Below, in pieces: positions 19,662 through 63,163 of a stretch of 64,000 nucleotides of DNA; within the stretch, counting starts at the first letter, position 1, and each line of letters opens with the position of its first letter. The position numbers and the translations under genes were made by a program. The notes under the pieces were generated by a model, which was not told the DNA's origin, made no database searches, and saw only the letters and a program-made list of their open reading frames with translations. Source of the DNA: a virus; the IMG/VR virus record IMGVR_UViG_3300009506_000004, positions 62,001 to 126,000 of that record; one strand, given 5' to 3'.

Positions 19662-22600
19662 TTATCTACCTAATTTAGAAGAAGTGCCACGTCTATACTC
19701 ACGGCGAAGTTCTGACAAGACACGTCTGGCAGTAGCATCAGGTGATGCTGTGCCTATAACTTTAATATCACCAATATTAACACTATTATTTACTACAGTT
19801 CCACCTTCGGCTCTATAAATTGGGTTAACACCAGCATTCATTGCAATTAATTGAGAAGCAAATTTCTTAGAAGCATTAGAATTAACAACAAATTCTCCAG
19901 GTGTCAACATAGCAGGAACAGTATCTGTTCCTCTAGTAAATCCACCAATACTTCTATAAAGTACTGGTCCACCAAACATTTTAGATTGTCCACCATTCGC
20001 TTGTGCTTGGTTTAATTCTCTTTGTTTATCAATGGCTTTTTGAATTTGCCCTACTAAATTGACATAACTTTGAGAAAGGTTATTATTAACTGTATCAGTA
20101 CTTAGCTGAATAGCACCAGTTAATTCACCTTGCCTATTGATTGGTTCATTTAATGCTTCACTTATACCACCAATTTTTTCATTTAGTGATCCTTGTTTTT
20201 CAAGTGAATCTTCTATTAATTTAATTAAATTTATATAAGATTCTTCTTCAGCTTGGATACGTCTTAATTGAGGTTTTTGACCAATAGTTTCATCTTGCGC
20301 TTTTTGTAATGCTTTTAATTGATCTAATATTGTACCACGAACAGCGGTTTCTCCCCATGGAGTTAATCCAGGGATATCAGCAACTTTATTTAATTGGTCA
20401 ATTAATCTAGCGGCATTTTGAAGATCTTCATCAGAAATAATATTCTTATTGGGATCTATAATTTTAGCAAATTTTTGCTCTATACGATCAATACCTCTAG
20501 TAATATTTGTAGTATCAATACCAAATTTTTCAATTGTTTGCCCAGTTTCCCTAGCATGACTAAGTGCTTTATTCCATGAACTTTCAACTTTACTTCTTGC
20601 ATTTATTTCATCTTGAAGTTGGGTATTTATATTTCCTTGTTCTTGTTCAAGTTCTTTGGATGCCTTTAAAGCAGCCTGACGTATTTGGTTAATACCAGCC
20701 AAAGGTTGTGCTGGATCAAATGTAAATTCTAAACCTAATTGTTCAGCTTTGCTAACTATAAATTCAACAGGAACTTGAGCTACTACATTACTAGCAGCTT
20801 GTGAAACAGTATCTTTTAAATTCTGTTGAGTTTTAGTGGGGTCAAAACTTAATTGTCTAAGTTGTTCATTGACTTTAACACCTAAATCAGCAACACCCAT
20901 TATTTCAGCAAAACTTAAATCTTCTCTGCTTAGAGCAGATTGCTGAATTTTATCAAATGCTTCCTTAGCATTTTTTATTGCTGCATCACGCTCAGCTTGA
21001 GGAAGTAAAGAACCACCATCTTGAAATAGACTAAGGTTATCTTTAAGTTGTTTTACATTTTCTTTAAGATCTGCAAGTTTTTGTTTTTCTTCAGCTTGTC
21101 TACTAGCAGCAGTAGCTGTTGCTTTATCATCTAAAGCTTGTTGTGCTTGTTTTGTTTTTAGTTGTTCTTTAAGAACAGCATCTAAAGCTTTTTCAGCTTT
21201 ATAGAGTTGAGCACGATTACCACTTTTCTCTGCTGTTTGAACAGCTTCTTCTGCTAATTTTTCAGAATACTCAAGAAGTTTTACTCTTTCTTCTAATCCT
21301 TTTTGTGTAGCTGGAGTTTGTCTAGCTTTAGATAAAGCTTCTTCGGCTCTTTGAGTTTGTTTAAAGGCTATAGTTAAATCATCTAAATGTCTAGTTCTTC
21401 TATTAAATTCATTGTCGTCTATTTTTTGGCGAATAGAAGCTTGGTCATCAAGATTTTTAGTTCTCCTGTTTTCTGCTTCAGAAATTCTTTTATCTATTGC
21501 ATTAACATATGTTGTTCTAGCAGAGACTAAATTATCTAAAATATCACTAGTTGTTTTTACAAAAGAATCATTTTCTTGTCTTATAACCTCTCTTGCTTCA
21601 TTTGCTGCTTCTTGAAGTTTATTAAAAGCTTCGTCACCTTTTTTACCAAGTTCATCTAAAGATTTTAAAGCTTCTGTAGTGTCTTTACTTATTTTTTCAA
21701 TATTATCAAGTTTTATTTTATCTAATCGTTCAAATTCGTCATTAAACTCAGCTAAAGTACTCTTTTTATCTAAAAATCCTATTAATTCACCAAGGGCATA
21801 ACCTATACCACCAGCTAATAATAAAGTACTTGCAGCAGCTGATGCAGCACCTACCTGTACAGTAAATAAAGCTTTCCCAGCCAATGTGGCTTTAGCTGCA
21901 TATGCTGTTAAAGAAGCAACACCAATACCAACTAAAGTCCCAGAAAGATTGTGAACTGCTCCTGAAACTAATCCTAAACCTTTTGTTATAATAGGTAAAG
22001 CATTTTGAGCAAGTACTAAAAATTCATTTTTTAATTGTTCTAATGCTTTTCTGAATTTAACAGCATCTTGTTCATTAAATTTTTCTAAAACTTTATCTAA
22101 ATAGGAAGTTGCTTCATTAGCTGCATCACCAATTTTCTTAATATTTTCAGCTAATAATTCACTTTGTGAAGATAAAGCTTCAAAAGCTGTTCTAGCACGA
22201 ATATTTGTGAAAAATTGAGCAATTCTAGAAGAATCACCTTGTGCTTGTGCAGCAATAGCTTGTATTACACCTTGTAATCCACCAAATTTTTGAATAGCCT
22301 CTTGAATATTAGCTACTTTAAATACTTCAGTAAATAATTTTTGTAATTCTTTTGTTGGCTTCTGTAATTGGTTAATAATAGCGCGTAATTGTGTTAATGC
22401 TCTAGTAGGTGAGACACCAGCTCTCGTAATGGTAGCTAAAGAAGCCCCAACTTCATTAAAAGAAATTCCAGCACTTCGCGCTAATGGTGTTACATTACCT
22501 AATTGATCAGCTATATCTTTTAATCTTGTGCGACCCAATTCTATTGTCTTGAATAAAGCAGCAGATACTTGGTCAGAAGATTGAACACTTAAATCATAAG

Positions 22601-23267
22601 AATTTAATACAGAAGATAATGCGCCAACAGCCTCAGAAACTTCAGAAGATGATATTCTAGCAAGTTTTAGAGAAGAAGTAAATAATGCATTACTGTCAGC
22701 TGATCCTTTTACTTGGTTAGAAAATTCTTGATATTTAGCTTCAGCTAAATCAAGTACATCAAAACCAAATTGATTTGATAGATTTATTAAATCAGTATTT
22801 AGATTATTTACTTCTGAATCAAAATTTTGAATACCTCTTGGCGAAATAGCAGCAGCTTCAGCAAGAGCTATTCCAAATTCTTCAGCAGTTCCAATGGCTT
22901 CTCTAAATTGTGATTGTAAAGCATTTAATGATCTTACTATACCTTGAGCTAAAGCAATTCTTCCAATTGTTTGCCAAGATAATAAAAATCCACGAGAAGC
23001 TTGTGTAGCTCCTTGAGTCTTTTTAGTAACATTATCAATTATTTTTCCTGCTTTATTTAATTTACCAGCAGCCTTAGCTGTGCTGTCTATTTGCTTACTT
23101 AAAGTAGAAAAATCATTTGATAATTTGTTAGCATTAAACTTTTTTAATGCATCAGCTGACCTAATTAAAGCATTATTTAATCCATTTAATGCATTTATTA
23201 CTTGATTAATACCTTGGATTGCACCACTAGCATCAAAACCTAATGACTGTATAATTTGATCGCTCAT
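19662..23267 (-). CDS. Tail tape measure protein (1201 aa)
   Basis: Long and helix-rich. The N-terminal third has the TP901-type core (AEEFGIALAEAAAISP, LASVLNSYDL-like and VGASLATITRAGVSPTRALTQL). A hydrophobic stretch near residues 440-500 could be membrane-active (GIGVASLTAYAAK...LLLAGGIGYALGEL). Extensive coiled coil follows, and the C-terminus has GTDTVPAMLTPGEFVVN, a common tape-measure tail. Length predicts a tail of about 180 nm using the usual 0.15 nm per residue. Confidence 0.9.
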   Translation of the reverse strand: MSDQIIQSLGFDASGAIQGINQVINALNGLNNALIRSADALKKFNANKLSNDFSTLSKQIDSTAKAAGKLNKAGKIIDNVTKKTQGATQASRGFLLSWQTIGRIALAQGIVRSLNALQSQFREAIGTAEEFGIALAEAAAISPRGIQNFDSEVNNLNTDLINLSNQFGFDVLDLAEAKYQEFSNQVKGSADSNALFTSSLKLARISSSEVSEAVGALSSVLNSYDLSVQSSDQVSAALFKTIELGRTRLKDIADQLGNVTPLARSAGISFNEVGASLATITRAGVSPTRALTQLRAIINQLQKPTKELQKLFTEVFKVANIQEAIQKFGGLQGVIQAIAAQAQGDSSRIAQFFTNIRARTAFEALSSQSELLAENIKKIGDAANEATSYLDKVLEKFNEQDAVKFRKALEQLKNEFLVLAQNALPIITKGLGLVSGAVHNLSGTLVGIGVASLTAYAAKATLAGKALFTVQVGAASAAASTLLLAGGIGYALGELIGFLDKKSTLAEFNDEFERLDKIKLDNIEKISKDTTEALKSLDELGKKGDEAFNKLQEAANEAREVIRQENDSFVKTTSDILDNLVSARTTYVNAIDKRISEAENRRTKNLDDQASIRQKIDDNEFNRRTRHLDDLTIAFKQTQRAEEALSKARQTPATQKGLEERVKLLEYSEKLAEEAVQTAEKSGNRAQLYKAEKALDAVLKEQLKTKQAQQALDDKATATAASRQAEEKQKLADLKENVKQLKDNLSLFQDGGSLLPQAERDAAIKNAKEAFDKIQQSALSREDLSFAEIMGVADLGVKVNEQLRQLSFDPTKTQQNLKDTVSQAASNVVAQVPVEFIVSKAEQLGLEFTFDPAQPLAGINQIRQAALKASKELEQEQGNINTQLQDEINARSKVESSWNKALSHARETGQTIEKFGIDTTNITRGIDRIEQKFAKIIDPNKNIISDEDLQNAARLIDQLNKVADIPGLTPWGETAVRGTILDQLKALQKAQDETIGQKPQLRRIQAEEESYINLIKLIEDSLEKQGSLNEKIGGISEALNEPINRQGELTGAIQLSTDTVNNNLSQSYVNLVGQIQKAIDKQRELNQAQANGGQSKMFGGPVLYRSIGGFTRGTDTVPAMLTPGEFVVNSNASKKFASQLIAMNAGVNPIYRAEGGTVVNNSVNIGDIKVIGTASPDATARRVLSELRREYRRGTSSKLGR

Positions 23268-36461: not shown

Positions 36462-37838
36462 TTAACCGAGCAATAGAACGGCAAGGTTGTCGTCAAGGAC
36501 AGCTGTTCCGCACAGCAAATCCAACACAACCTTAGTTCCACCAGCATCGATATCATACTGCATAGTAGCGCGCATCGCAATGTCATTATAAGATGAAACA
36601 AAGGATCGAGCACCTTCAGACGCATCCGGTCGCGCTAATGGTCGAGTGACCAACGCAAACGAATTACGATGAAATGCAACATTGAAATCACCAGCTGGGC
36701 CAGGGAAGGCACCATCGCCATCAGTTAACGCAAGATCAAGGGGTCGATCTAACAGAACCTTAACCTCAGTTGCACTAACTGTAATGGTTTCAATGACAGA
36801 ATATGTATGACGTGTCGTAGGTGTTGTACCAAATGCAATGAGCTGGCCAACTACAGGTGGTTTTCCAGATGTAAAACCATCAATACTAATATACTTAGCA
36901 TAACCAGCAGAGTAGTTACCATTAACATCAGCCATCATATAAACCGTGATAACAGCACCACTTTCAACATCATACTTAATAGCTTCGTTAAGTGTGGCAG
37001 CAGTTGTATCAGTTGTGTCATCAACTTCAGCTGTGATCCAAGTTGGCTGATCATTACCGGCCAGATTGGCAAATTCACCAACGTTACAAACATAATCTGT
37101 AACATCAAACGCTGTCAACGAACCAGTTGTACCCGCAGCAATAGCCGCAGTAGTAGCACCAAGAACTGTGTCACGCGAAGCAGTTGATAATACACCATTC
37201 ACATTCTGGTCCATGAATGTGTCAAAACTACCAATACGGCCTAACAAAGCCTCTTCCAGCGCTGTTCCACCGTCACCACGTTTTTCTGAACTAACAAAAA
37301 GTTCAGTCTTTAGCATAGCTGTTTCGGACCCTGGAGCCAAAACTAACTTACGACCCGATGTATGGGCTAATGTTCGGTTTAACTTCTCTCGGGCTTCCAG
37401 CACAGTATCCCAAGCATTGCTGGATGTAAGATTAAGTAACCGCCCAACACGATCTTCAGGGTCACCGATCAGCGCATGAGCCATACGACCGACTATAGCA
37501 CGATCAATACCATTACCCATGGCTTTCATACCTGGGACTAAATGAACCTGAATAAGATCTTGCAAAGACTTCGACCGCTCACCATCCTTAATAACAAAAC
37601 CAGCATACATATGCTGATTAAGTGGAACTTGTACGTTAGTAACAACAGCATCATTATACTCAGTTGTATCAGAATCTGTCTTTCGATACACCTTCATATC
37701 AGCTGGCTTACGTGTATTAACCACGTCACCATAATCTTTAACTTCCATCGAGAAATCCCGATGAACTAACATACCCATAATCATGTTCTCTTCGAGAACA
37801 GCAATAGACTCCCGTGCCCAAACTTCTGGGACAAGCAT
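36462..37838 (-). CDS. Major capsid protein, P22 coat-like (exon 2; frame opens at 37838)
   Basis: The frame from ATG 37838 gives 458 residues: LVPEVWARESIAVLEENMIM, an HK97-like core, an inserted beta domain (about 210-350) and FHRNSFALVTRPL near the C-terminus, as in P22-type coat proteins. This ATG has no ribosome site and follows a stop directly. The first codon is better read as the last bases of a group I intron, making exon 2 36462-37835. Joined to exon 1 (38714-38764) the protein is 474 residues. Codons are richer in G/C at third positions than its neighbours, consistent with high expression. Confidence 0.85.
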   Translation of the reverse strand: MLVPEVWARESIAVLEENMIMGMLVHRDFSMEVKDYGDVVNTRKPADMKVYRKTDSDTTEYNDAVVTNVQVPLNQHMYAGFVIKDGERSKSLQDLIQVHLVPGMKAMGNGIDRAIVGRMAHALIGDPEDRVGRLLNLTSSNAWDTVLEAREKLNRTLAHTSGRKLVLAPGSETAMLKTELFVSSEKRGDGGTALEEALLGRIGSFDTFMDQNVNGVLSTASRDTVLGATTAAIAAGTTGSLTAFDVTDYVCNVGEFANLAGNDQPTWITAEVDDTTDTTAATLNEAIKYDVESGAVITVYMMADVNGNYSAGYAKYISIDGFTSGKPPVVGQLIAFGTTPTTRHTYSVIETITVSATEVKVLLDRPLDLALTDGDGAFPGPAGDFNVAFHRNSFALVTRPLARPDASEGARSFVSSYNDIAMRATMQYDIDAGGTKVVLDLLCGTAVLDDNLAVLLLG

Positions 37839-40887: not shown

Positions 40888-42669
40888 TTATTTACCCTTG
40901 CCACGAATTGGCTTTTTAGTTGTATCATTTAATGTAGTATCAGTAGCTTCGTCTCTTTCTTCTACAGCATCTTTAGGATTAGTTTCCATATCTTTAACAC
41001 CGCGAGCACCAGCATTTTCTATTGGAGGTGCTTGTGCTTGCTGAATACGAGCTACACGTTTAGCATGATCTTTATTAGCTTTGGGTACTTCAATTTCACC
41101 ATCAAAACCAAGAGCATTAGATAATGTTACATCTGAAGCTAATCCTTCTTCTTTAGCTAACCTAACAACATCAGGACTACTTGTAGAATAATTAGCTGTA
41201 TCAATTTCCTTGTTTATTTTTGCTAATAAGTCTGGTGTTATTCTCCCACCCATTAATGAAGCTGTAGCATCTTTTGCTAATTCTTTTTTAGCTGTAGTAC
41301 TAGGAATAGAAAACATTAAACCTGTTAATTTATCAGCTTCAGTAATTCTATCACCCATTGATTTTAAGCTATATTGTTCTGGATATTTAATTACAACAGT
41401 ATCAGAACTATTTTTCCCTTCATAAGCAGCCCAATGATCAGCTATTTTTCTTTCGGCTGTTTCTAATACAAGCCCAATAAAAGCCAAACCAGCTTCTAAC
41501 CCTTGGTTATCTATATTTCTGGATTCAGCAGAAGCCCTATTACTTCCTAAAGAAATAACGGCTAAATTCACTAATTTTCTAATATCTTCTTCTAATTTTC
41601 TTTGTAATTCAATAGAAGCTCTTAAAGGTTCAGAAGATGGGTGAATAAAGCCTGGACGTTCCGCTTTAATATCATAGTAACGACCATCTACTGCACCAAC
41701 TCTTATTTGCTTATCGCCAGCAGCTTGCCCACCAGAGGATGATGTTCCATCTTCCATAATATCCGATTTAATATGAGAGCCCATGGCTCTAGCATCCTGT
41801 TGCTCTGTGTAGAATGGGAAATTTGCTTTGAGAGCATAGGAAACATCACTAGAAACAAGATTTAATAAAGCTATTTGATGATTAGCTATATCTTTTAATA
41901 AACTATCACCAACACTGCATAAAACAAATGGAATTTTCCTTAATTCAAGTCTTTGTGGCTCAAAAAGCCATGCCTCGCCATTTTGGTCTATTGGCTTACC
42001 AGCTGAATCAAAAAATTGATATCTTACATATCCATCATTTGGGTCAACCCAAACTAATCTGAATCGTTCAAATGATGTTGAAGGTAAGAATACATTCCCA
42101 TAATGTACATTATAATTAATACACCAATCTCTTAATAAAATTGCTTGGTAATCACTTTCTTGGTGTGGTAAAGAAGATCTCCATGATAAAATATCTTCGA
42201 CTCTATATTGATATAAATATGGTGCGGCATTTTCTGCATCAGCTAATGTTGGTCCAGCTGGTGCAATATTATCTACATAAATCCCAACTTGCCCCATAGC
42301 TAACATTTCTGGAAGTATTTGAGTACCTATGAAATGGTTCATACTAGAACCGTGTCTATCAACACCCCCTTTATAACCATTTATTGCTGATTCATATGCT
42401 TGACTGCCACCACGTCTAATAATATCTACCATTCTAGAGAAAATAGAATTTTTAATATCAACCAAAGCTGCTTTTGCAAAACCTGGGACAGGTGTTATAT
42501 TTCTACGTTTATCAAAATCATCATCATTCTCGCGTTCAGACCATTTTTCTAAATAAGTTCTAATAAAGGCATCTCCACCTTCCCAAATATATCGCCATTT
42601 ACTCCAATCTGGTAGATTGTAGATATATTGTGGATGCCTTAGACTTGGGATGGTAATTGTTTGTGCCAT
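40888..42669 (-). CDS. Portal protein (593 aa)
   Basis: Between terminase and scaffold. Contains the clip/wing type sequence RRNITPVPGFAKAALVDIKN, PEMLAMGQVGIYVDN and a long C-terminal helical region with ASAESRNIDNQGLEAGLAFIG. This matches DUF4055-like portals of siphoviruses. The C-terminus is charged and polar, as in DNA-channel portal tails. It would form the dodecameric DNA gateway. Confidence 0.8.
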   Translation of the reverse strand: MAQTITIPSLRHPQYIYNLPDWSKWRYIWEGGDAFIRTYLEKWSERENDDDFDKRRNITPVPGFAKAALVDIKNSIFSRMVDIIRRGGSQAYESAINGYKGGVDRHGSSMNHFIGTQILPEMLAMGQVGIYVDNIAPAGPTLADAENAAPYLYQYRVEDILSWRSSLPHQESDYQAILLRDWCINYNVHYGNVFLPSTSFERFRLVWVDPNDGYVRYQFFDSAGKPIDQNGEAWLFEPQRLELRKIPFVLCSVGDSLLKDIANHQIALLNLVSSDVSYALKANFPFYTEQQDARAMGSHIKSDIMEDGTSSSGGQAAGDKQIRVGAVDGRYYDIKAERPGFIHPSSEPLRASIELQRKLEEDIRKLVNLAVISLGSNRASAESRNIDNQGLEAGLAFIGLVLETAERKIADHWAAYEGKNSSDTVVIKYPEQYSLKSMGDRITEADKLTGLMFSIPSTTAKKELAKDATASLMGGRITPDLLAKINKEIDTANYSTSSPDVVRLAKEEGLASDVTLSNALGFDGEIEVPKANKDHAKRVARIQQAQAPPIENAGARGVKDMETNPKDAVEERDEATDTTLNDTTKKPIRGKGK

Positions 42670-42681
42670 TAATTTTCTCCA

Positions 42682-44391
42682 TTACAAAAATTTCCCAATA
42701 TTTTGATTAGTTGCAATAGAAGCAGCACATGGCAATGCCATTTCTGCGTAATTTAAAGCATGTGCATAATGATCGGGATGACCATAGTTTTTATATGCAG
42801 CTACTGGATTACCATATTGGTCCTCTTCATATACTCTATGCAAAGCTTTTACATGGTCTGCAAAGCCTCTTGGAAGATCCATCGGAGTTTCTATAGCACC
42901 AGAATGAAATCTCCCCAAACTAATATCCAACCAATTTGTTCTATCAACAGTGGCTACAGGGGCAGATGATCCATCATCTTCTATAGTCATTTCTTTTCCT
43001 GCTCTACCCTGACGATATCTATTTAACCAAACATAACCAGGAAATCTTCTAGCAAAACGTCTTGCTTCTTGTGGACCAGGATCCATATCAACCATACAAG
43101 CACGTATTTGCCATTCCCGCATTAATCTATCTGGGATTGTATCAAAATCTTCTTCGTGAAAACGACCAGCATCTAATATTCTACATTCAGCTGAAGTATT
43201 TAAATCAACACAAAATTGTGGATAAAACCATTCACAAATAACATAATGACACCATGTACCTCTATCAAGACCCATAGTAATCATACGGTTTTCGCCAGAT
43301 TTTACAGATAATTGTTTACAGTTATACTGTTTAATTGCATTATTTATCATTTCATCAGTTACTTGTGATTGTTCCTCTACAAAAGGTTCACCGAGAACTG
43401 ATTTATGAAATTCTTGCCTTGCAAAACTATTTGTTTGTGATTTAAAATAATCAATTACAACCTCAGCTGGAGCTACAGTGTAACTATATAGTTGATTAAT
43501 TTTAAAACCACGTCTATTTTTATCTGTTCCAGTAACAGTAGGTTCCCAATAACCAGTATTTACTAAAGTAGAAAGTTTATCATCTTGATTTATGGAACCA
43601 TTTTCCCTATAAGAATGTTTATAACCATATTTACACATTGTACACTGATAATATGATTTATAACAATCTGGGTCATTCATATCCTCCCCACAAATTTTTA
43701 TTGAATCTGGGAAGATAAATTCATCTGTTCTACCACAACCAGGGCATTTAAAACGAAAATGTTCTTGGGTACTTTTTGCATATTCTAAACTAACCCCACG
43801 GTCTGGGAATGTAGGGGTACTAATCATCCAAATTTTCTTTTCTAGTTGACCCCTTAAACGATGAAAAGCCAATTCAATTTGAGATTTGTCCATTTCATCT
43901 AATTCATCAAGAATAAGCACAGCAACTGGTAAAGATTTAAGATTCGCATCACCTCTACTACCACGGATATAAAGTGATACATTATCTGACATTTTCAGCC
44001 CAACATTATTAGTATCAGTAAAAATACTTTTCAAGTATGGACTTAATCTTAAAGCTGGATTGAATCTTGACTTAGAAAAATCTGAAGCATTTTCTAATGT
44101 TGGTAAAACATAAAGAACACTTTTTCTCAAAACATCAACTGTGTATAAGGCTATATTTATACCTACTTCTGTAAAACCAGCTTGTGCTGATTTCATAGAA
44201 ATATTCCACATAGCTTGACTATCATGTAGTTCTCTGCACCAAGGATGGTATTTATAACTATAATTACCTGCAAAAGGTTCACCCATTATCCGTCGTTTTT
44301 CAGACCATCTAGAAGGTGTAGTAATAGATACACTTTCTAGCTGATTTCTTAATTCCTCTCGGAACCAATTCATCATTGACGACATGGACAT
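42682..44391 (-). CDS. Terminase large subunit, GpA type
   Basis: ATPase: the WNISMKSAQAGFTEV Walker A-like block (about residue 65) and VAVLILDELDEMDKSQ Walker B. A zinc-finger-like CPGCG...CTMC segment is in the middle. The C-terminal nuclease part has MGLDRGTWCHYVI, ACMVDMDPGPQEA and FADHVKALHRV. This layout is that of lambda gpA-like terminases. It packages DNA through the portal encoded immediately downstream. Confidence 0.85.
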   Translation of the reverse strand: MSMSSMMNWFREELRNQLESVSITTPSRWSEKRRIMGEPFAGNYSYKYHPWCRELHDSQAMWNISMKSAQAGFTEVGINIALYTVDVLRKSVLYVLPTLENASDFSKSRFNPALRLSPYLKSIFTDTNNVGLKMSDNVSLYIRGSRGDANLKSLPVAVLILDELDEMDKSQIELAFHRLRGQLEKKIWMISTPTFPDRGVSLEYAKSTQEHFRFKCPGCGRTDEFIFPDSIKICGEDMNDPDCYKSYYQCTMCKYGYKHSYRENGSINQDDKLSTLVNTGYWEPTVTGTDKNRRGFKINQLYSYTVAPAEVVIDYFKSQTNSFARQEFHKSVLGEPFVEEQSQVTDEMINNAIKQYNCKQLSVKSGENRMITMGLDRGTWCHYVICEWFYPQFCVDLNTSAECRILDAGRFHEEDFDTIPDRLMREWQIRACMVDMDPGPQEARRFARRFPGYVWLNRYRQGRAGKEMTIEDDGSSAPVATVDRTNWLDISLGRFHSGAIETPMDLPRGFADHVKALHRVYEEDQYGNPVAAYKNYGHPDHYAHALNYAEMALPCAASIATNQNIGKFL

Positions 44392-45679: not shown

Positions 45680-46540
45680 TTACGGTGCTTCAATGAATAC
45701 AGCTTCTTCTAATATCTTTATTAAATAAGGGAAATCCTTTTGGGAAGCTGCATTTCTTTCAAATTTTACACCAATATCTTCAATTCTAATTGTAGAAAAA
45801 TCTTCAGGCATTGGTTCACTTTCTACCATAGCCCAATAAACACCAGCTTCTTTAGCCCATCGTACCATTCTCCTTACAGGGACGATAAGATTAAATTGTT
45901 CACCAGCGCCACGAACTAGCATCCCGACATATTTACCGTCTTTTAAATAAACTCCACCACCAGACGATCCAGGAAATGCAGTAACAGTAGTTTGGTCATA
46001 AACTATTTGGTCAATTAAACGTCCATGCTGAGAAATAACACCAGATGTTATAGAATTAGAACCCATTTCTCCTAAAAGAGAGCCACAATGCCATAGATCA
46101 CTTCCGATACTAGGAGGCTTTTCTTCAAGATAAAATTGAACACTACCTTTTGTTACAAAATTCTTAGAACGAATTTTAAGTAAAGCTAAATCTTCCTTTT
46201 CAGAATATTTTATAACTAAAGCATTCCATTCAGTTTTACCAACTGTACGACCATCTTCTATAATATGCTTAATGACCATAGCATCCTTAAATTCAACTAC
46301 AGTTCTTCGGGTACCTGTAGCAGGGTCAGTTACTTGCTTTTCAAATCGTAATCCATCAACTACGTGACCAGCTGTCCAAACGAATGTTTTACCATCACGT
46401 TGATAAAGAACACCACTCCCTTGACTCATACCAGCTCCAATTGTTACTGAAATATCTTGAAGATATTCAGCAGTCTCATTAGCTAAGCAAGCAGTGGCAA
46501 AAAATAACATTAAAAATAAAGCTGTTAACTTTGTCTTCAT
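45680..46540 (-). CDS. Secreted trypsin-like serine protease (286 aa)
   Basis: The N-terminal signal peptide (KLTALFLMLFFATACLA) is followed by a chymotrypsin-like domain: catalytic H in WTAGHVV, D in EDLALLKI, S in FPGSSGGGVY. It resembles the HtrA/DegP protease core without a PDZ domain. Phage-encoded periplasmic proteases are rare. A second one is at 52305. Possible roles are lysis, periplasmic protein turnover or surface modification. Its ATG overlaps the preceding thioredoxin-like gene. Confidence 0.75.
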   Translation of the reverse strand: MKTKLTALFLMLFFATACLANETAEYLQDISVTIGAGMSQGSGVLYQRDGKTFVWTAGHVVDGLRFEKQVTDPATGTRRTVVEFKDAMVIKHIIEDGRTVGKTEWNALVIKYSEKEDLALLKIRSKNFVTKGSVQFYLEEKPPSIGSDLWHCGSLLGEMGSNSITSGVISQHGRLIDQIVYDQTTVTAFPGSSGGGVYLKDGKYVGMLVRGAGEQFNLIVPVRRMVRWAKEAGVYWAMVESEPMPEDFSTIRIEDIGVKFERNAASQKDFPYLIKILEEAVFIEAP

Positions 46541-46842: not shown

Positions 46843-47796
46843 TCACCATGAAAAATCTAAATCATCAGTCTTAAAACCAGACCCAATTAATGCAAATGCA
46901 TCATTTTGTTTGCACATTTTTGTTACAATATTAGCATCAACCCATCCCACAAATCCGGCTATATTCATTGGCATTGACTTAGGCCAACGATTTTCTGGAT
47001 TAGGTGTAGAATTTGGACCCCAACTTTGTGCTATTAAGGCACCCGGCTTATCAAACCTTACACCAATCCAAACCATAAGATGATACCAAATTCCACTTGG
47101 TGTCCAAAAGCCGTCCTTATTAAGTTTCATATCCCCAAAACCTTGGCTACTACCTACAATTACTGGTACTTGTAGCCCAGATATAGCTTTAGCAACATCA
47201 TCAAAATCATTACATTGAGAATATTCTTTAACTGGGTGCTCTTTTGCTAATTGGTCCATTTTTCCTTGGTCATTTTGTCCGCCATTTCCAAATGCACCCC
47301 AAGATTTAGCCTTATTGCCAGAGTATATTCTCAAATCATCATCAGATTGGCCAGTGATTTCAGAATAATTTTTTCTTAAAAGTACTCCCCAATCTCTAAC
47401 CCATTTAGCAGCAGCCGCACCATAAGAACCGTCTTGGTAACCACCATAAGCTTTAGCACCATCGCCCGGATATCCTCGTGCCTCTACACGTGAGCCACCA
47501 TATATTGGTTCTGTAGCTACTTCTTCTGGGCACATTTCATCATCACCAGAACGGTAAGCAGCTTTGTCATTCAAAATTGTACAAGCTAATTCTGTTCCCC
47601 AGCTAACACAATCACCAATTGCTTGATTACCTCGCTGATAATTTGGTCTCCTAGAAATCAAATAATTATAGAGAAAAGTATCTTTTTCTTTAAATTCTTG
47701 ATCACCCCAAGCAACTGAAAAGACAGGGTGTTCACTAGCTAATAAACACTTTTCAATGCCAGGATAATGTGGAACCCATCCAAAATTATTACTCAT
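46843..47796 (-). CDS. Papain-like cysteine peptidase-fold protein (317 aa)
   Basis: QAIGDCVSWGTELACTIL gives the oxyanion Q and catalytic C, IWYHLMVWIGV the H, and LIAQSWGPNSTPNPENRW the N (as in the NSWG of papains). No signal peptide is evident. The chain is rich in G and W. It lies with holin-like and protease genes, so a role in cell wall or protein degradation at lysis is plausible. Substrate unknown. Confidence 0.6.
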   Translation of the reverse strand: MSNNFGWVPHYPGIEKCLLASEHPVFSVAWGDQEFKEKDTFLYNYLISRRPNYQRGNQAIGDCVSWGTELACTILNDKAAYRSGDDEMCPEEVATEPIYGGSRVEARGYPGDGAKAYGGYQDGSYGAAAAKWVRDWGVLLRKNYSEITGQSDDDLRIYSGNKAKSWGAFGNGGQNDQGKMDQLAKEHPVKEYSQCNDFDDVAKAISGLQVPVIVGSSQGFGDMKLNKDGFWTPSGIWYHLMVWIGVRFDKPGALIAQSWGPNSTPNPENRWPKSMPMNIAGFVGWVDANIVTKMCKQNDAFALIGSGFKTDDLDFSW

Positions 47797-51812: not shown

Positions 51813-52308
51813 GACAACCGGGTTAGATCCAAATAAACATCAAATTTTAGAATTTGCTGCTGTATTATGGACCTGTGATGATATTATGCAATGCCCATAT
51901 TTCTATAATATTATAATACCAAAAGGTGATATTATAGGGGAACCATATGCATTAATTATGAATATGCGTATTTTAAAAGCTATTATAGCTGGGAATGGGG
52001 TATCATTAGTACAAAATTTTGGAGATTTTACACATTGGTTGGAATATAATGGTATAAACCCGCATAAAAAAGCTTATGTTATTGGTAAAAACTTTGGAAA
52101 TTTTGACCTCCAGTTTTTGAATAAAATCCCAGATTGGCCTGGAAGTTATTTCCATCATAGGATTTTAGATGTAGGTTCATTATACGCAACACGTGATGGT
52201 ATACCTAGTACTGATTATCTCCCAAAACCACCTATAACTGAAGAGCCACATTACGCATTACATGATGCTAGATTAGACCTTTTTGCTGTTATGAAGAAAT
52301 TAAAATGA
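51790..52308 (+). CDS. DEDDh 3'-5' exonuclease (172 aa)
   Basis: Exo I CSIDIETTGLDP, Exo II VIGKNFGNFDLQFL, Exo III HYALHDARLDLFAV (H-x4-D). This is a stand-alone epsilon/RNase T-type domain, distinct in sequence from the one at 12926. Two such exonucleases in one phage window suggests separate proofreading and RNA-processing roles, as inference. Confidence 0.8.
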   Translation: MYCSIDIETTGLDPNKHQILEFAAVLWTCDDIMQCPYFYNIIIPKGDIIGEPYALIMNMRILKAIIAGNGVSLVQNFGDFTHWLEYNGINPHKKAYVIGKNFGNFDLQFLNKIPDWPGSYFHHRILDVGSLYATRDGIPSTDYLPKPPITEEPHYALHDARLDLFAVMKKLK

Positions 52309-52892
52309 TAGTTATACTTTTAGTCCTTATAATTTGTTCTACTACTTATGCAACTCCTCCCTTGTATGCTGTTAGAATTTGTTGTTATGATAATGATGAT
52401 GCTATAATAGATAGTTGTGGTAGTGGTTCTCTCATAAATAAAGAATATGTGATAACAAACCACCATGTAATAAAGGATGCAAGACTTGTAAGAGTTTTAT
52501 TTAAAGATTGGCAATACGTCCCTGGAAGAATCGTTAAAAAAGATGCAAAAGTTGATTTGGCTTTAATTAAAATTCCAGAACAATCCAGAACTACTATTAG
52601 TTTTGCACCAAAGACAAGTAAAGGTGATATAGTTACATTATTTGGATATGGACAAGGTTTACCGGGAAAAGGAGTAGGTATTATAAATAGTTTTGTACGT
52701 CGTACACAAAATGGACCATTAATAAATATGGAAATTGATGGTTATGCAGTACGCTCTGGAGATTCTGGTGGCCCCGTAATAGATAGTAAAGGTAGACTAT
52801 CTGGTGTTATTTTTGGTGCTACTAAAGATGAAAGTTATGCTGTTCGTATTGAAACTGTCAAATCTTTTATAAAAGGATATATTGATGATTAA
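52305..52892 (+). CDS. Secreted trypsin-like serine protease 2 (195 aa)
   Basis: Signal peptide (MIVILLVLIICSTTYA) then a compact serine protease domain: H in VITNHHVIKDA, D in VDLALIKI, S in RSGDSGGPVIDS. It lacks the extra C-terminal part of the 45680 protease and is only distantly similar. Cysteines in RICCYDNDDAIIDSC may form a disulfide. It lies in the early small-gene block, not with lysis genes, so an early periplasmic role is possible. Confidence 0.75.
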   Translation: MIVILLVLIICSTTYATPPLYAVRICCYDNDDAIIDSCGSGSLINKEYVITNHHVIKDARLVRVLFKDWQYVPGRIVKKDAKVDLALIKIPEQSRTTISFAPKTSKGDIVTLFGYGQGLPGKGVGIINSFVRRTQNGPLINMEIDGYAVRSGDSGGPVIDSKGRLSGVIFGATKDESYAVRIETVKSFIKGYIDD

Positions 52893-54099: not shown

Positions 54100-54491
54100 T
54101 GTACATAAGTTTAAATATATTAAATAATGCTGTTGTTGAGAATCCTGATGGCAGTAAACAATCAGTACAAGGATTACTTAAACTTAATATAAATGTTGAC
54201 AATATTAATTTTATTATAAAACCACTTGGGCAGCCAGCCCTTGTTGTATCCAATGGTGTAAATTTTATAGCAACAGATAACATACCAGAAAATATTATTG
54301 GATTACATAGATTTCAAATTAAGGAAGGTGGGTTTGTTTGGCTTAGTCCAAAACATATAGTCTATTATGCAAGCACTGACGAAATAGGAATCTATCTTAT
54401 AGGTTTTACTGGTGGAAATAGAGTTTCTATTAAGGCAACTGGCCAAGAAGTTCATGATATGATTTCTGTAAGTATAATAACAACACCATGA
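54099..54491 (+). CDS. Hypothetical beta-rich protein (130 aa)
   Basis: Not recognised. Successive strands (LLKLNINVDNINFIIKPLG, RVSIKATGQEVHDMISVSII) suggest a beta-sandwich. Shares its last bases with the start of the Tat-signal gene. Confidence 0.45.
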   Translation: MYISLNILNNAVVENPDGSKQSVQGLLKLNINVDNINFIIKPLGQPALVVSNGVNFIATDNIPENIIGLHRFQIKEGGFVWLSPKHIVYYASTDEIGIYLIGFTGGNRVSIKATGQEVHDMISVSIITTP

Positions 54492-54733
54492 AAAGAAGAA
54501 ATTTTTTAAAATTAGCGTCATTAGCTCCTTTAGTATTTTTAACACCATTACCTAAATTAGCACCAAAACCACAAGGAACACTTTGGACTACACACCAATT
54601 TGAAGAAAATGTAGTTATTAAAAATGGTGGACCATTAGAATGGTGTATAGCAGAACGCTGGGCTGAAGAAAGTTTAAGTATATTAGAAGAAAATATGATA
54701 ATATCAGAATTAATTCATAGGGATTTTATATGA
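54488..54733 (+). CDS. Tat-signal protein whose C-terminus resembles the coat-protein N-terminus (81 aa)
   Basis: The N-terminus KRRNFLKLASLAPLVFL is a good twin-arginine signal (RRxFLK plus moderate hydrophobic core). The C-terminal 26 residues (ERWAEESLSILEENMIISEL onward, ending HRDF) match 16 of 26 positions of the coat-protein start (EVWARESIAVLEENMIMGML onward). The codons differ, so it is a diverged homologue, not a recent copy. It ends where the coat match is just beginning. It could be a truncated coat-like remnant fused to a signal, or a decoy or adaptor. Confidence 0.6.
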   Translation: MKRRNFLKLASLAPLVFLTPLPKLAPKPQGTLWTTHQFEENVVIKNGGPLEWCIAERWAEESLSILEENMIISELIHRDFI

Positions 54734-55773: not shown

Positions 55774-55944
55774 ATGTTTGGAATCGGGCCGATGGAGCTA
55801 TCAATTATCGGAGTTGTGGCTGTTCTTCTCTTTGGAAATAGGCTTCCTGGGGTAGCTAGATCTATAGGGCAGTCCTTTCATGAATTAAAGCGTGGGCTTA
55901 ATGAGGCAATTGAATATGACGACAATAACAATAGCAGTGGTTAA
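55774..55944 (+). CDS. tatA: TatA-like twin-arginine translocase subunit (56 aa)
   Basis: The product starts MFGIGPMELSIIGVVAVLLF, followed by GNRLPGVARSIGQSFHELKR. It shows every TatA hallmark: a short N-terminal helix (E8 in the polar N-terminal part), the FG hinge, LP, then an amphipathic helix with conserved F, E and K/R, and a short polar tail. In bacteria TatA multimerises to form the pore that moves folded, Tat-signal proteins. It has AAGGAG seven nt upstream of the ATG. The gene is richer in G/C than its neighbours, suggesting acquisition from a cellular source. I know of no established phage-borne tatA like this. Confidence 0.85.
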   Translation: MFGIGPMELSIIGVVAVLLFGNRLPGVARSIGQSFHELKRGLNEAIEYDDNNNSSG

Positions 55945-56155
55945 ATGGTTTGACGCATCATATCAACGTGGTGAGTGTACAATTGATGACTTAATTACAA
56001 GAATTGATATGACTTCTGCTGGTATATTAGTTAGGGAAGACGAAGAGAGTGTTTCTATAGCTATTGATAATTATGATGAAATTTTCAGGTATATTTCTCA
56101 TATTCCTAAAGTTAATATTTTAGAAATGCAAAAAATATATGTTAATCTAGTATAA
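55916..56155 (+). CDS. Conserved small phage protein (79 aa)
   Basis: VVKWFDASYQRGECTIDDL and VREDEESVSIAIDNYDEIFR resemble a short phage/plasmid protein family (W.D.SFQ.G...DD, then G.LV.ED...V.LA, then IPK). Starts at ATG 55916, inside the last codons of tatA, so the two are translationally coupled. Function unknown. Its coupling to tatA is notable but not proof of shared function. Confidence 0.55.
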   Translation: MTTITIAVVKWFDASYQRGECTIDDLITRIDMTSAGILVREDEESVSIAIDNYDEIFRYISHIPKVNILEMQKIYVNLV

Positions 56156-56159
56156 ATAT

Positions 56160-56312
56160 ATGTTAAGTAAGAAAGCAAAGAATAACATATTCATAACAGG
56201 AATCATCATAGGATTATGGCTTGTTTTATTTGGATTTGGTATACTAAATAAATGGTTCTTATTATCTGGTATGGGTATAATTATGACAGCAATAGTATTA
56301 GGATTATGGTAA
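56160..56312 (+). CDS. Two-helix membrane protein, copy 1 (50 aa)
   Basis: MLSKKAKNNIFITGIIIGLW, then a turn LNKWF and GMGIIMTAIVLGLW. Paralogue of the 56405 product: both share F.T...IGL.....G....NKW....GM.IM. Positive N-terminus suggests N-in, C-in. Downstream of tatA. Too short for TatC and not TatB-like. Confidence 0.6.
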   Translation: MLSKKAKNNIFITGIIIGLWLVLFGFGILNKWFLLSGMGIIMTAIVLGLW

Positions 56313-56408
56313 ATGTGTAAAATAATATCAAATATTGTATTTTACATAACAATAATACTTAGTATCTTAATGTTAATATTTGGAATTATAGGAATTATAA
56401 CAGAATGA
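56313..56408 (+). CDS. Single-helix membrane peptide (31 aa)
   Basis: MCKIISNIVFYITIILSILM and LIFGIIGIITE: nearly all hydrophobic. Starts directly after the previous stop and overlaps the next ATG. Expression inferred from packing. Confidence 0.45.
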   Translation: MCKIISNIVFYITIILSILMLIFGIIGIITE

Positions 56409-56542
56409 AAAGACATACATTCTTTTTAACAATATTAACAATTGGACTTGTATGTGCTTCAATTGGAGTTTATATTGATAATAAATGGATTGGAGTTTTA
56501 GGGATGAGTATTATGGGATTTTCAGCACTTATAGGAATATAA
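56405..56542 (+). CDS. Two-helix membrane protein, copy 2 (45 aa)
   Basis: MKRHTFFLTILTIGLVCASI, then a loop with DNKW and VLGMSIMGFSALIGI. Aligns with the 56160 product across its length. ATG overlaps the previous TGA. A diverged tandem duplication of a tiny membrane protein next to tatA. Confidence 0.55.
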   Translation: MKRHTFFLTILTIGLVCASIGVYIDNKWIGVLGMSIMGFSALIGI

Positions 56543-56546
56543 CAGA

Positions 56547-57026
56547 ATGTTAAGACGAGATCTTTTAAAATTTTTTGCTGCATTAGCTGTAGCACCAATA
56601 TCTTCTTGTGTTAAGTCAGATGAGCCAAATGTACTAGAAGGCTCATGGGCTATGTTAGGTATGCAACATAGCCTGAAAAATGGGGATTTATTGTTTTCTA
56701 CAGATAATACTGAATTATTAGTTAGACCAATTGATGGTAGTTTAACCTATACTAGCCGCATAGATATGGATGCTCTTCCTAAAACTAGGGGTGAATTAGG
56801 ACTAGAACCAGAATTCAATGATATAATTGATTTTCATTTATTGGTTGTAACAGAGAATTTAGATTTAGAAAAATTTAAGAAAATAAAAGAATCGCCCAAA
56901 TTTAAGTTGACAACAAAAACAGATGGTCTATACTTCATATTGAATGAAGCTTATTGGACTTTGATAAATCATAACAAGCAAGGTGATATGGAATCATTAG
57001 AAATAGAGGGTCTTGCAAAATATTAA
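56547..57026 (+). CDS. Tat-signal lipoprotein-like protein (159 aa)
   Basis: The N-terminus MLRRDLLKFFAALAVAPISS, followed by C, has a twin-arginine motif (RRDLLK), a hydrophobic core and a lipobox-like ISSC. Export by Tat and lipid attachment at Cys21 would place it on a membrane. The mature domain is alpha/beta, has DLLFSTDNTELLVRP and ends at LEIEGLAKY. Not recognised. As the nearest exported protein to tatA, it is the first candidate substrate. Confidence 0.65.
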   Translation: MLRRDLLKFFAALAVAPISSCVKSDEPNVLEGSWAMLGMQHSLKNGDLLFSTDNTELLVRPIDGSLTYTSRIDMDALPKTRGELGLEPEFNDIIDFHLLVVTENLDLEKFKKIKESPKFKLTTKTDGLYFILNEAYWTLINHNKQGDMESLEIEGLAKY

Positions 57027-62682: not shown

Positions 62683-63163
62683 GTGTGTATAATAAAATTA
62701 TCTAAAGGAATGGAAACAATTGTTTCCAAAGAGGATTATGATTATTTGATACAATGGAAATGGTATGCTCAAAAAAAATTATGCTAGTAGAAATCCGGTC
62801 AAAAATGACGATGATTCTATTGACAGGCGTAAAGTTATTCATATGCACCGAGAGGTAGCGAGGCGGATGGGATTAGATTTATCTAATGAAATTGATCATA
62901 TAAATGGTGATAAATTAGACAATAGAAGAGAAAATTTAAGATCTGCTACTCGTTCACAAAATAAAATGAATAGTGGAAAACCTAAAAATAATACTAGTGG
63001 TTACAAAGGTGTCTGTTGGTATAAAAGGGGTAATAAATGGAGAGCACAAATTGGAATTAATGGTAAATTAAAACATTTAGGTTATTTTGAAGATAAAGAA
63101 GAAGCAGCTAAAGCTTACAAAAAAGCAGCTGAGAAATATCATGGTGAATTTGTTAGGTATTAG
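62683..63163 (+). pseudogene. HNH-AP2 endonuclease, third copy, broken by a frameshift
   Basis: Starting at GTG 62683 the frame reads KLSKGMETIVSKEDYDYL and WKWYAQK, then stops. A +1 shift at an A8 run near 62771-62778 restores YASRNP and the complete HNH (REVARRMGLDLSNEIDHING) and AP2 (YKGVCWYKRGNKW) domains to 63163. The restored protein aligns end to end with one unit of the 4011-4877 gene. Either a true frameshift mutation, a homopolymer sequencing error, or slippage-dependent expression. Confidence 0.75.

Follow-up and report, generated by a model that had tools for sequence, protein, structure and literature searches.

The Tat translocase moves folded proteins and rejects unfolded cargo, and the abundance of TatA limits pore formation on TatBC. 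The phage protein YonE, which recurs below, is a portal protein. A folded partner with no signal of its own can cross via Tat when bound to a signal-bearing protein, as in HybO/HybC and PaoABC (PMC4273604). Among immune sensors, CapRel is activated by and senses the phage major capsid protein, MCP (PMC9712102), Thoeris likewise is activated by and senses MCP (PMC11312562), and SpbK interacts with YonE (PMC12847820). Interference with head assembly is a known anti-phage strategy (PMC10884400). Literature searches for a phage TatA module or a Tat-signal capsid mimic found neither, in agreement with an earlier note on this DNA, whose author knew of no established phage Tat module. The locus described here combines a phage-encoded TatA with Tat-signal genes, some of which copy segments of head proteins.

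Results

The window analysed is a stretch of 64,000 nucleotides, corresponding to bases 62001–126000 of a 129,439-base IMG/VR record (labelled G000); coordinates without a prefix are window positions. The record is that of a tailed phage, with hallmark genes on the minus strand for a portal protein (40888–42669; phrog_145, 1.4e-34), the terminase large subunit TerL (42682–44391; phrog_675, 2.4e-79) and a tape measure protein (19662–23267; phrog_991, 1.7e-20), together with genes for MCP, DNA polymerase and primase. On the plus strand at 55774–55944 lies a gene for a 56-residue protein with a short TM helix, an FG-NR-LP hinge and an amphipathic helix. The product passes the curated cut-off of PF02416 (36.9 bits against 21; 35.7 bits in six-frame translation), which was the profile search proposed in the earlier note. 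Its best named family is TIGR01411 tatAE (42.3 bits, under that family's cut-off of 53.9), which scores higher than TIGR01410 tatB (26.0 bits, also under its own cut-off). In a profile comparison with the PDB, solved TatA chains are matched at E 4e-9 to 5e-8, ahead of TatB chains, and an AF2 model places helices at residues 6–21 and 24–55 (mean pLDDT 73). The Pfam match, the two predicted helices and the solved structures bear out the TatA layout that the note had read from the sequence, and its remarks on a good ribosome site and a G/C-richer gene are equally sound (AAAGGAG; 43% GC against 30% in the region).

TatC was sought in the whole record and is absent. The product of 55774–55944 is a genuine TatA and its 129-kb carrier a true tailed phage that has no TatC, and the Tat genes of this phage are a TatA supplement and not a complete TatABC or TatAC translocase, of which TatC would be part. 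An Rfam scan of 49–64 kb gave no match. Misassembly of host DNA into the phage record was also considered; it is ruled out by the low-GC phage neighbours of tatA, the hallmark genes, the absence of TatC, the sister phages that have no TatA (see below) and the recurrence of tatA in 24 other viral records.

Downstream of tatA, a gene for a 79-residue protein (55916–56155, plus strand; no family match) has its start codon within tatA, with a 29-nt overlap, and is thus coupled as had been proposed. It is followed on the same strand by genes for a 50-residue hydrophobic protein (56160–56312; no family match), a 31-residue single-TM peptide (56313–56408) and a 45-residue hydrophobic protein (56405–56542), the last two with sub-threshold family matches only. 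The three tiny hydrophobic proteins noticed earlier are therefore present, whereas the paralogy suggested for two of them (56160 and 56405) is unsupported at E≤0.01. PADLOC, run on ten proteins, returned no match. Further along the window, at 62765–63163 (plus strand; G000:124765–125163), lies a gene of a family of HNH-type homing endonucleases; the genome has four or more related copies, some of them on the minus strand.

Three good Tat signals were found in all 129 kb, and two of the genes that encode them share the strand of tatA and are no more than 1.3 kb away from it. The first (54488–54733, plus strand) encodes an 81-residue protein that starts with MKRRNFLKLASL and is composed of an RR-type signal (RRNFLK), a linker and a C-terminal copy of the capsid N-arm; it has no obvious AxA cleavage site. 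The second (56547–57026, plus strand) encodes a 159-residue protein (MLRRDLLKFFAALAVAPISSC) that begins MLRRDLLKFF..ISSC and includes a lipobox; no IMG/VR relative, family or capsid similarity was found for it. Both carry an RRxF/L motif with a weakly hydrophobic h-region close to the N-terminus. The third gene (IERRNFLKSSTTLLALGFTG..SNAEE; G000:58569–59063, minus strand) lies 3.4 kb to the left of the window and overlaps the end of the DNA polymerase gene, and its product shows no family match and no capsid mimicry. The curated Tat profiles are not passed by 54488 and 56547 (PF10518, 11.2 and 12.6 bits against 22.7; TIGR01409, 13.7 bits for 54488 against 16.7, with 56547 unmatched), so that they are assigned on the strength of motif, h-region and context. 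The Tat-type signals that the note wished to see checked in these two proteins are accordingly upheld by the motif, the h-region and the lipobox of 56547, and not by the profile cut-offs. Across the whole set described below, individual signals mostly fall slightly under the curated cut-offs, and related cargo reaches 17.6 bits with TIGR01409, above its cut-off.

Two trypsin-like proteases (PF13365) with Sec-type signals are also encoded in the window, at 52305–52892 (plus strand) and 45680–46540 (minus strand). Together with the Tat cargo, they suggest that the phage has more than one way of acting on the periplasm.

The search for tatA-like genes in further phages, suggested in the earlier note, was made by one protein-based scan and one FGxxLP pattern scan. 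It yielded 24 more IMG/VR viral records, and TatA is above the Pfam cut-off in 25/25 records including the present one (labels G000–G024). TatC (PF00902) was sought in all of them and found in 0/25. Terminase (phrog_2) is present in 17 of the 25 and an HK97-type capsid (PF05065) in 7, the others being fragments or belonging to different families. Most FGxxLP matches were a repeated unrelated protein (MFGIPLPYIALAIGIALFGSYRGG), and such loci were used as controls; an FGxxxLP scan gave few TatA-like matches, on small or possibly host-flanked contigs, which were excluded. Among the isolated phages of INPHARED there is no relative of the TatA in the window, and another phage TatA has one 32%-identical match there, in the 6.9-kb record of a phage of S. 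aureus. Glu8, FG, LP, Gly and Lys are conserved across the phage proteins, and dN/dS of 0.05–0.30 in the best-sampled clade indicates purifying selection. A TatA tree on 54 columns is mostly unresolved, and it therefore does not support an estimate of how often the gene was acquired. All of the ten nearest bacterial TatA proteins belong to Planctomycetota, which makes this phylum the probable host group, as judged from TatA similarity alone.

Tat-signal genes cluster around the phage tatA. The surrounding zone was defined as 2.5 kb on the tatA strand, and genes were called by a Tat-signal rule that was fixed after a partial look at the data and then applied unchanged to all controls. The zone covers 115 kb and holds 23 Tat-signal genes; the remaining 1,466 kb of these records, counted on both strands, hold 41. 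The 91 control viral loci, 786 kb in all, contain one such gene, and 25 bacterial tatA neighbourhoods (113 kb) likewise one. The binomial p for the clustering is 6e-17. A cargo gene stands beside tatA in 7/13 lineages, a figure reached by 11/20,000 random placements. Cargo lies away from tatA in G002, G007, G008, G010 and others (G007, G008 and G010, for example, have Tat-signal genes elsewhere in the genome), and none was detected in G012 by the fixed rule.

Two local arrangements may be mentioned. In the clade of G004, G006, G015, G017, G018 and G019, a Tat-signal family of about 100 residues (a small domain with ..LLVFK..) is encoded directly upstream of tatA. Within the 511-kb record G013, at 312–332 kb, three mutually related Tat-signal proteins are encoded within 8 kb of tatA, and two of them carry repeats resembling HRDNGPAV.

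The clustering bears on whether this TatA serves transport at all. As a small, membrane-active protein followed by three tiny hydrophobic genes, it could be a holin-like or membrane-stress factor with an amphipathic helix, the Tat-signal genes being coincidental. We consider this very improbable, since the clustering is far above controls, the residues Glu8, FG, LP, Gly and Lys are conserved, and presence and absence co-vary among sister phages. As TatC is missing, the phage protein can act solely as a supplement to host TatBC. TatA and its dedicated Tat cargo very likely form one functional module, and boosted export of phage cargo is, with much the same assurance, the most economical reading. 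The proposal in the earlier note that the phage boosts host Tat export for its own proteins is in this respect the best reading now, given TatA, the lack of TatC, the adjacent cargo and the recurrence in other phage records. Its further suggestion, that the cargo consists of envelope proteins acting in superinfection exclusion or in the control of lysis, is not supported: nothing found here points that way, and several cargo proteins are patchworks of head proteins (see below).

Part of the cargo copies segments of head proteins. Residues 54–80 of the 54488 product (IAERWAEESLSILEENMIISELIHRDF) match residues 3–29 of the phage's own MCP (VPEVWARESIAVLEENMIMGMLVHRDF; gene at 36462–37838, minus strand; phrog_283 major head protein, 1e-50), the source of the N-arm, at 59% over 27 residues (E 1.7e-8; z 16.7 against shuffles), and this N-arm is conserved throughout that capsid family. 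Three Tat-signal proteins of G007 are built in a similar manner: 74060 contains capsid residues 225–261 at 70% identity with a C-terminal RRAGFYGW-EH piece, 74529 joins capsid residues 140–168 and 87–100 to residues 229–276 of a second large protein that is conserved among sister phages, and 134435 contains capsid residues 92–120. The G010 Tat-signal genes 100719 and 95173 hold capsid residues 76–96 and 256–292, and 106981, which is Tat-tagged as well, is related to the gene beside the capsid gene. In G020 the cargo gene immediately preceding tatA has a product that matches Pfam Phage_capsid (30.0 bits against a cut-off of 24.2), with a weaker portal match, and the model of this product, predicted without an alignment, has a pLDDT of 39, too low to be of use; the G009 cargo is similar to it (z 6.7). 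Head-protein segments (z 6.7–21) thus occur in three genes each of G007 and G010 as well as in G000 and G020/G009. Besides the capsid family of G000, two further ones are thereby involved, in which the Tat-signal proteins combine capsid with portal or with a second head protein. Outside the head-protein theme, G024:33937–34434 (minus strand) encodes a Tat signal with a ParB-like domain and an HTH, the parent ParB-like gene lying elsewhere in that record (38% over 112 residues).

An own-genome paralogous stretch is found in 12/30 Tat genes, against 116/1,618 other genes of similar size (Fisher p 7.5e-7), and 8/10 short ORFs with pieces of the capsid or the second head protein have a Tat signal; the G007 fragment genes 87421 and 21078 are without one. 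The former (G007:87421–87936, minus strand) encodes a 171-residue protein paralogous to part of the capsid protein (33% over 204 columns), which might serve as a partner or a poison in the cytoplasm. In most cargo, including 56547 and G000:58569, own-genome comparison detected no mimicry. Synonymous sites are saturated in 6/7 pairs of mimic and capsid segments (pS 0.82–1.19) with pN of 0.15–0.42, the 54488/MCP pair having pS 0.90 and pN 0.30. As pS is saturated and pN moderate, the likeness to head proteins has been kept at the protein level. Fresh duplication was considered as an origin and is ruled out for these six segments, G010_100719 (pS 0.40) being the exception.

These copies could be read as a mere source of sequence for the birth of new cargo genes, in an export module with no decoy role whose TatA boosts periplasmic effectors acting in superinfection exclusion or in envelope or lysis control. 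The association of TatA with cargo is strong without invoking mimicry, which goes undetected in most cargo, and both the Sec-type trypsin-like proteases of the same phage and the lipobox of 56547 fit such a module. However, the fragments are mostly of head proteins and not of genes at large, and similarity kept despite mostly saturated synonymous sites is unexpected for neutral raw material. We regard this explanation as possible, if doubtful. The N-arm, a stretch resembling the spine helix and the portal are presumably intersubunit elements, by comparison with known HK97-fold capsids. The Tat signals might then anchor capsid and portal segments to the cytoplasmic membrane on its inner side, so that these contact the interfaces of head proteins and guide procapsid assembly, with TatA stabilising the docking; the lack of an obvious AxA site in 54488 would also fit. 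Membrane-tethered assembly factors of this kind are nevertheless improbable, as such cargo would stay untranslocated, making a dedicated TatA pointless, and sister phages with the same capsid do without these genes.

The cargo changes fast between close relatives. G009 and G020 are 99.8% identical in terminase and 98.8% in portal, with an identical TatA core and an unchanged capsid, and the DNA flanking the cargo slot is 92–96% identical on both sides. The cargo genes directly upstream of tatA are nonetheless so divergent that no match was found between them (swapped or hyperdiverged), yet each version keeps a Tat signal and a capsid-like stretch. The slot looks like an arms-race cassette. Fast swapping or divergence between near-identical phages would also be expected of a weapon against rivals, in which truncated capsid and portal pieces would poison head assembly in related phages infecting the same cell, Tat export keeping the damage to the phage itself small, and head-assembly interference offers a precedent (PMC10884400). 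Against this, export would take the agent away from the compartment where heads are assembled, and the segments resemble the phage's own capsid, so that a weapon seems decidedly improbable.

Five sister phages of G007/G010 (571 kb), with MCPs 64–75% identical to that of G007, were searched for TatA, a convincing Tat-signal gene and a capsid-fragment gene, all of which were found in 0/5. TatA, Tat signals and capsid mimicry therefore co-vary in this family (2/2 with, 0/5 without). The GC content of the five sisters (0.39–0.41, against 0.46–0.49 for G007/G010) suggests that they have different hosts, which makes host identity a possible confounder of the comparison. Among records with the capsid family of the window, most of which are fragments, none has a TatA above the cut-off. 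A papain-like family of about 330 residues is encoded near phage head genes in the window (46843–47796, minus strand) and in L222, L231, L239, L240, L254, G022 and G023. Its members carry a Tat signal in several phages, the G000 homologue being without one, and as some of these Tat-signal proteins occur in TatA-less records with the same capsid, host Tat alone is usable by phages.

Discussion

The explanation that we tentatively place first overall, at somewhat short of an even chance, is that TatA tops up TatBC for cargo that includes decoys. We infer that the phage TatA works with host TatBC and that the cargo is exported: by topping up the TatBC receptor, TatA would increase the Tat flux available to the products of 54488, 56547 and G000:58569. 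The mimic cargo would present short copies of segments from capsid, portal and other head proteins to which immune sensors of the host respond. A decoy might bind its sensor in the cytoplasm and the complex leave through Tat by hitchhiker co-export, or it might act by competition alone. Short capsid segments that have no bound partner may be insufficiently folded for Tat. That the capsid-mimic cargo serves as a decoy against capsid-sensing host immunity is possible but uncertain. The fuller version, an export-based counter-defence in which patchwork cargo hauls capsid and portal sensors out via host Tat, TatA raises the capacity and the slot is swapped like an arms-race cassette, we hold to be rather unlikely as a whole.

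If the decoy reading were true, removal by export would be a new principle of counter-defence. The copied capsid and portal are proteins watched by bacterial immune sensors, and the patchwork cargo may trap and dispose of host defences. Even with no decoy role, the locus offers testable genes and a means of finding phages that manipulate the export of proteins; these probably infect Planctomycetota, a phylum whose viruses have received little study.

In comparison with described systems, TatA is a known family member, and we found no described system that resembles the combination of a phage TatA with Tat-tagged capsid patchworks. The sensors CapRel, Thoeris and SpbK are relevant to decoy and anti-defence proteins here in that the copied capsid and portal are such triggers; among described anti-defence proteins none was found with a Tat signal and patchwork capsid segments, and sensor binding by the cargo is what we propose for the present case. 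In hitchhiker co-export (HybO/HybC, PaoABC; PMC4273604) the partners are physiological enzyme subunits, whereas a viral use is what we propose. The papain-like Tat proteins, encoded upstream of head genes in phages of the same MCP family, are like the cargo of tatA phages in being phage-encoded with a Tat signal, but are larger and enzyme-like, show no capsid mimicry and come from records that have no tatA. The phage TatA itself is like bacterial TatA/TatE (PF02416, TIGR01411) in length, E8, FG, LP and the amphipathic helix. It differs in being phage-borne, in a record without tatC, and in having Tat-signal cargo genes packed alongside it, as the bacterial tatA genes of the control set do not.
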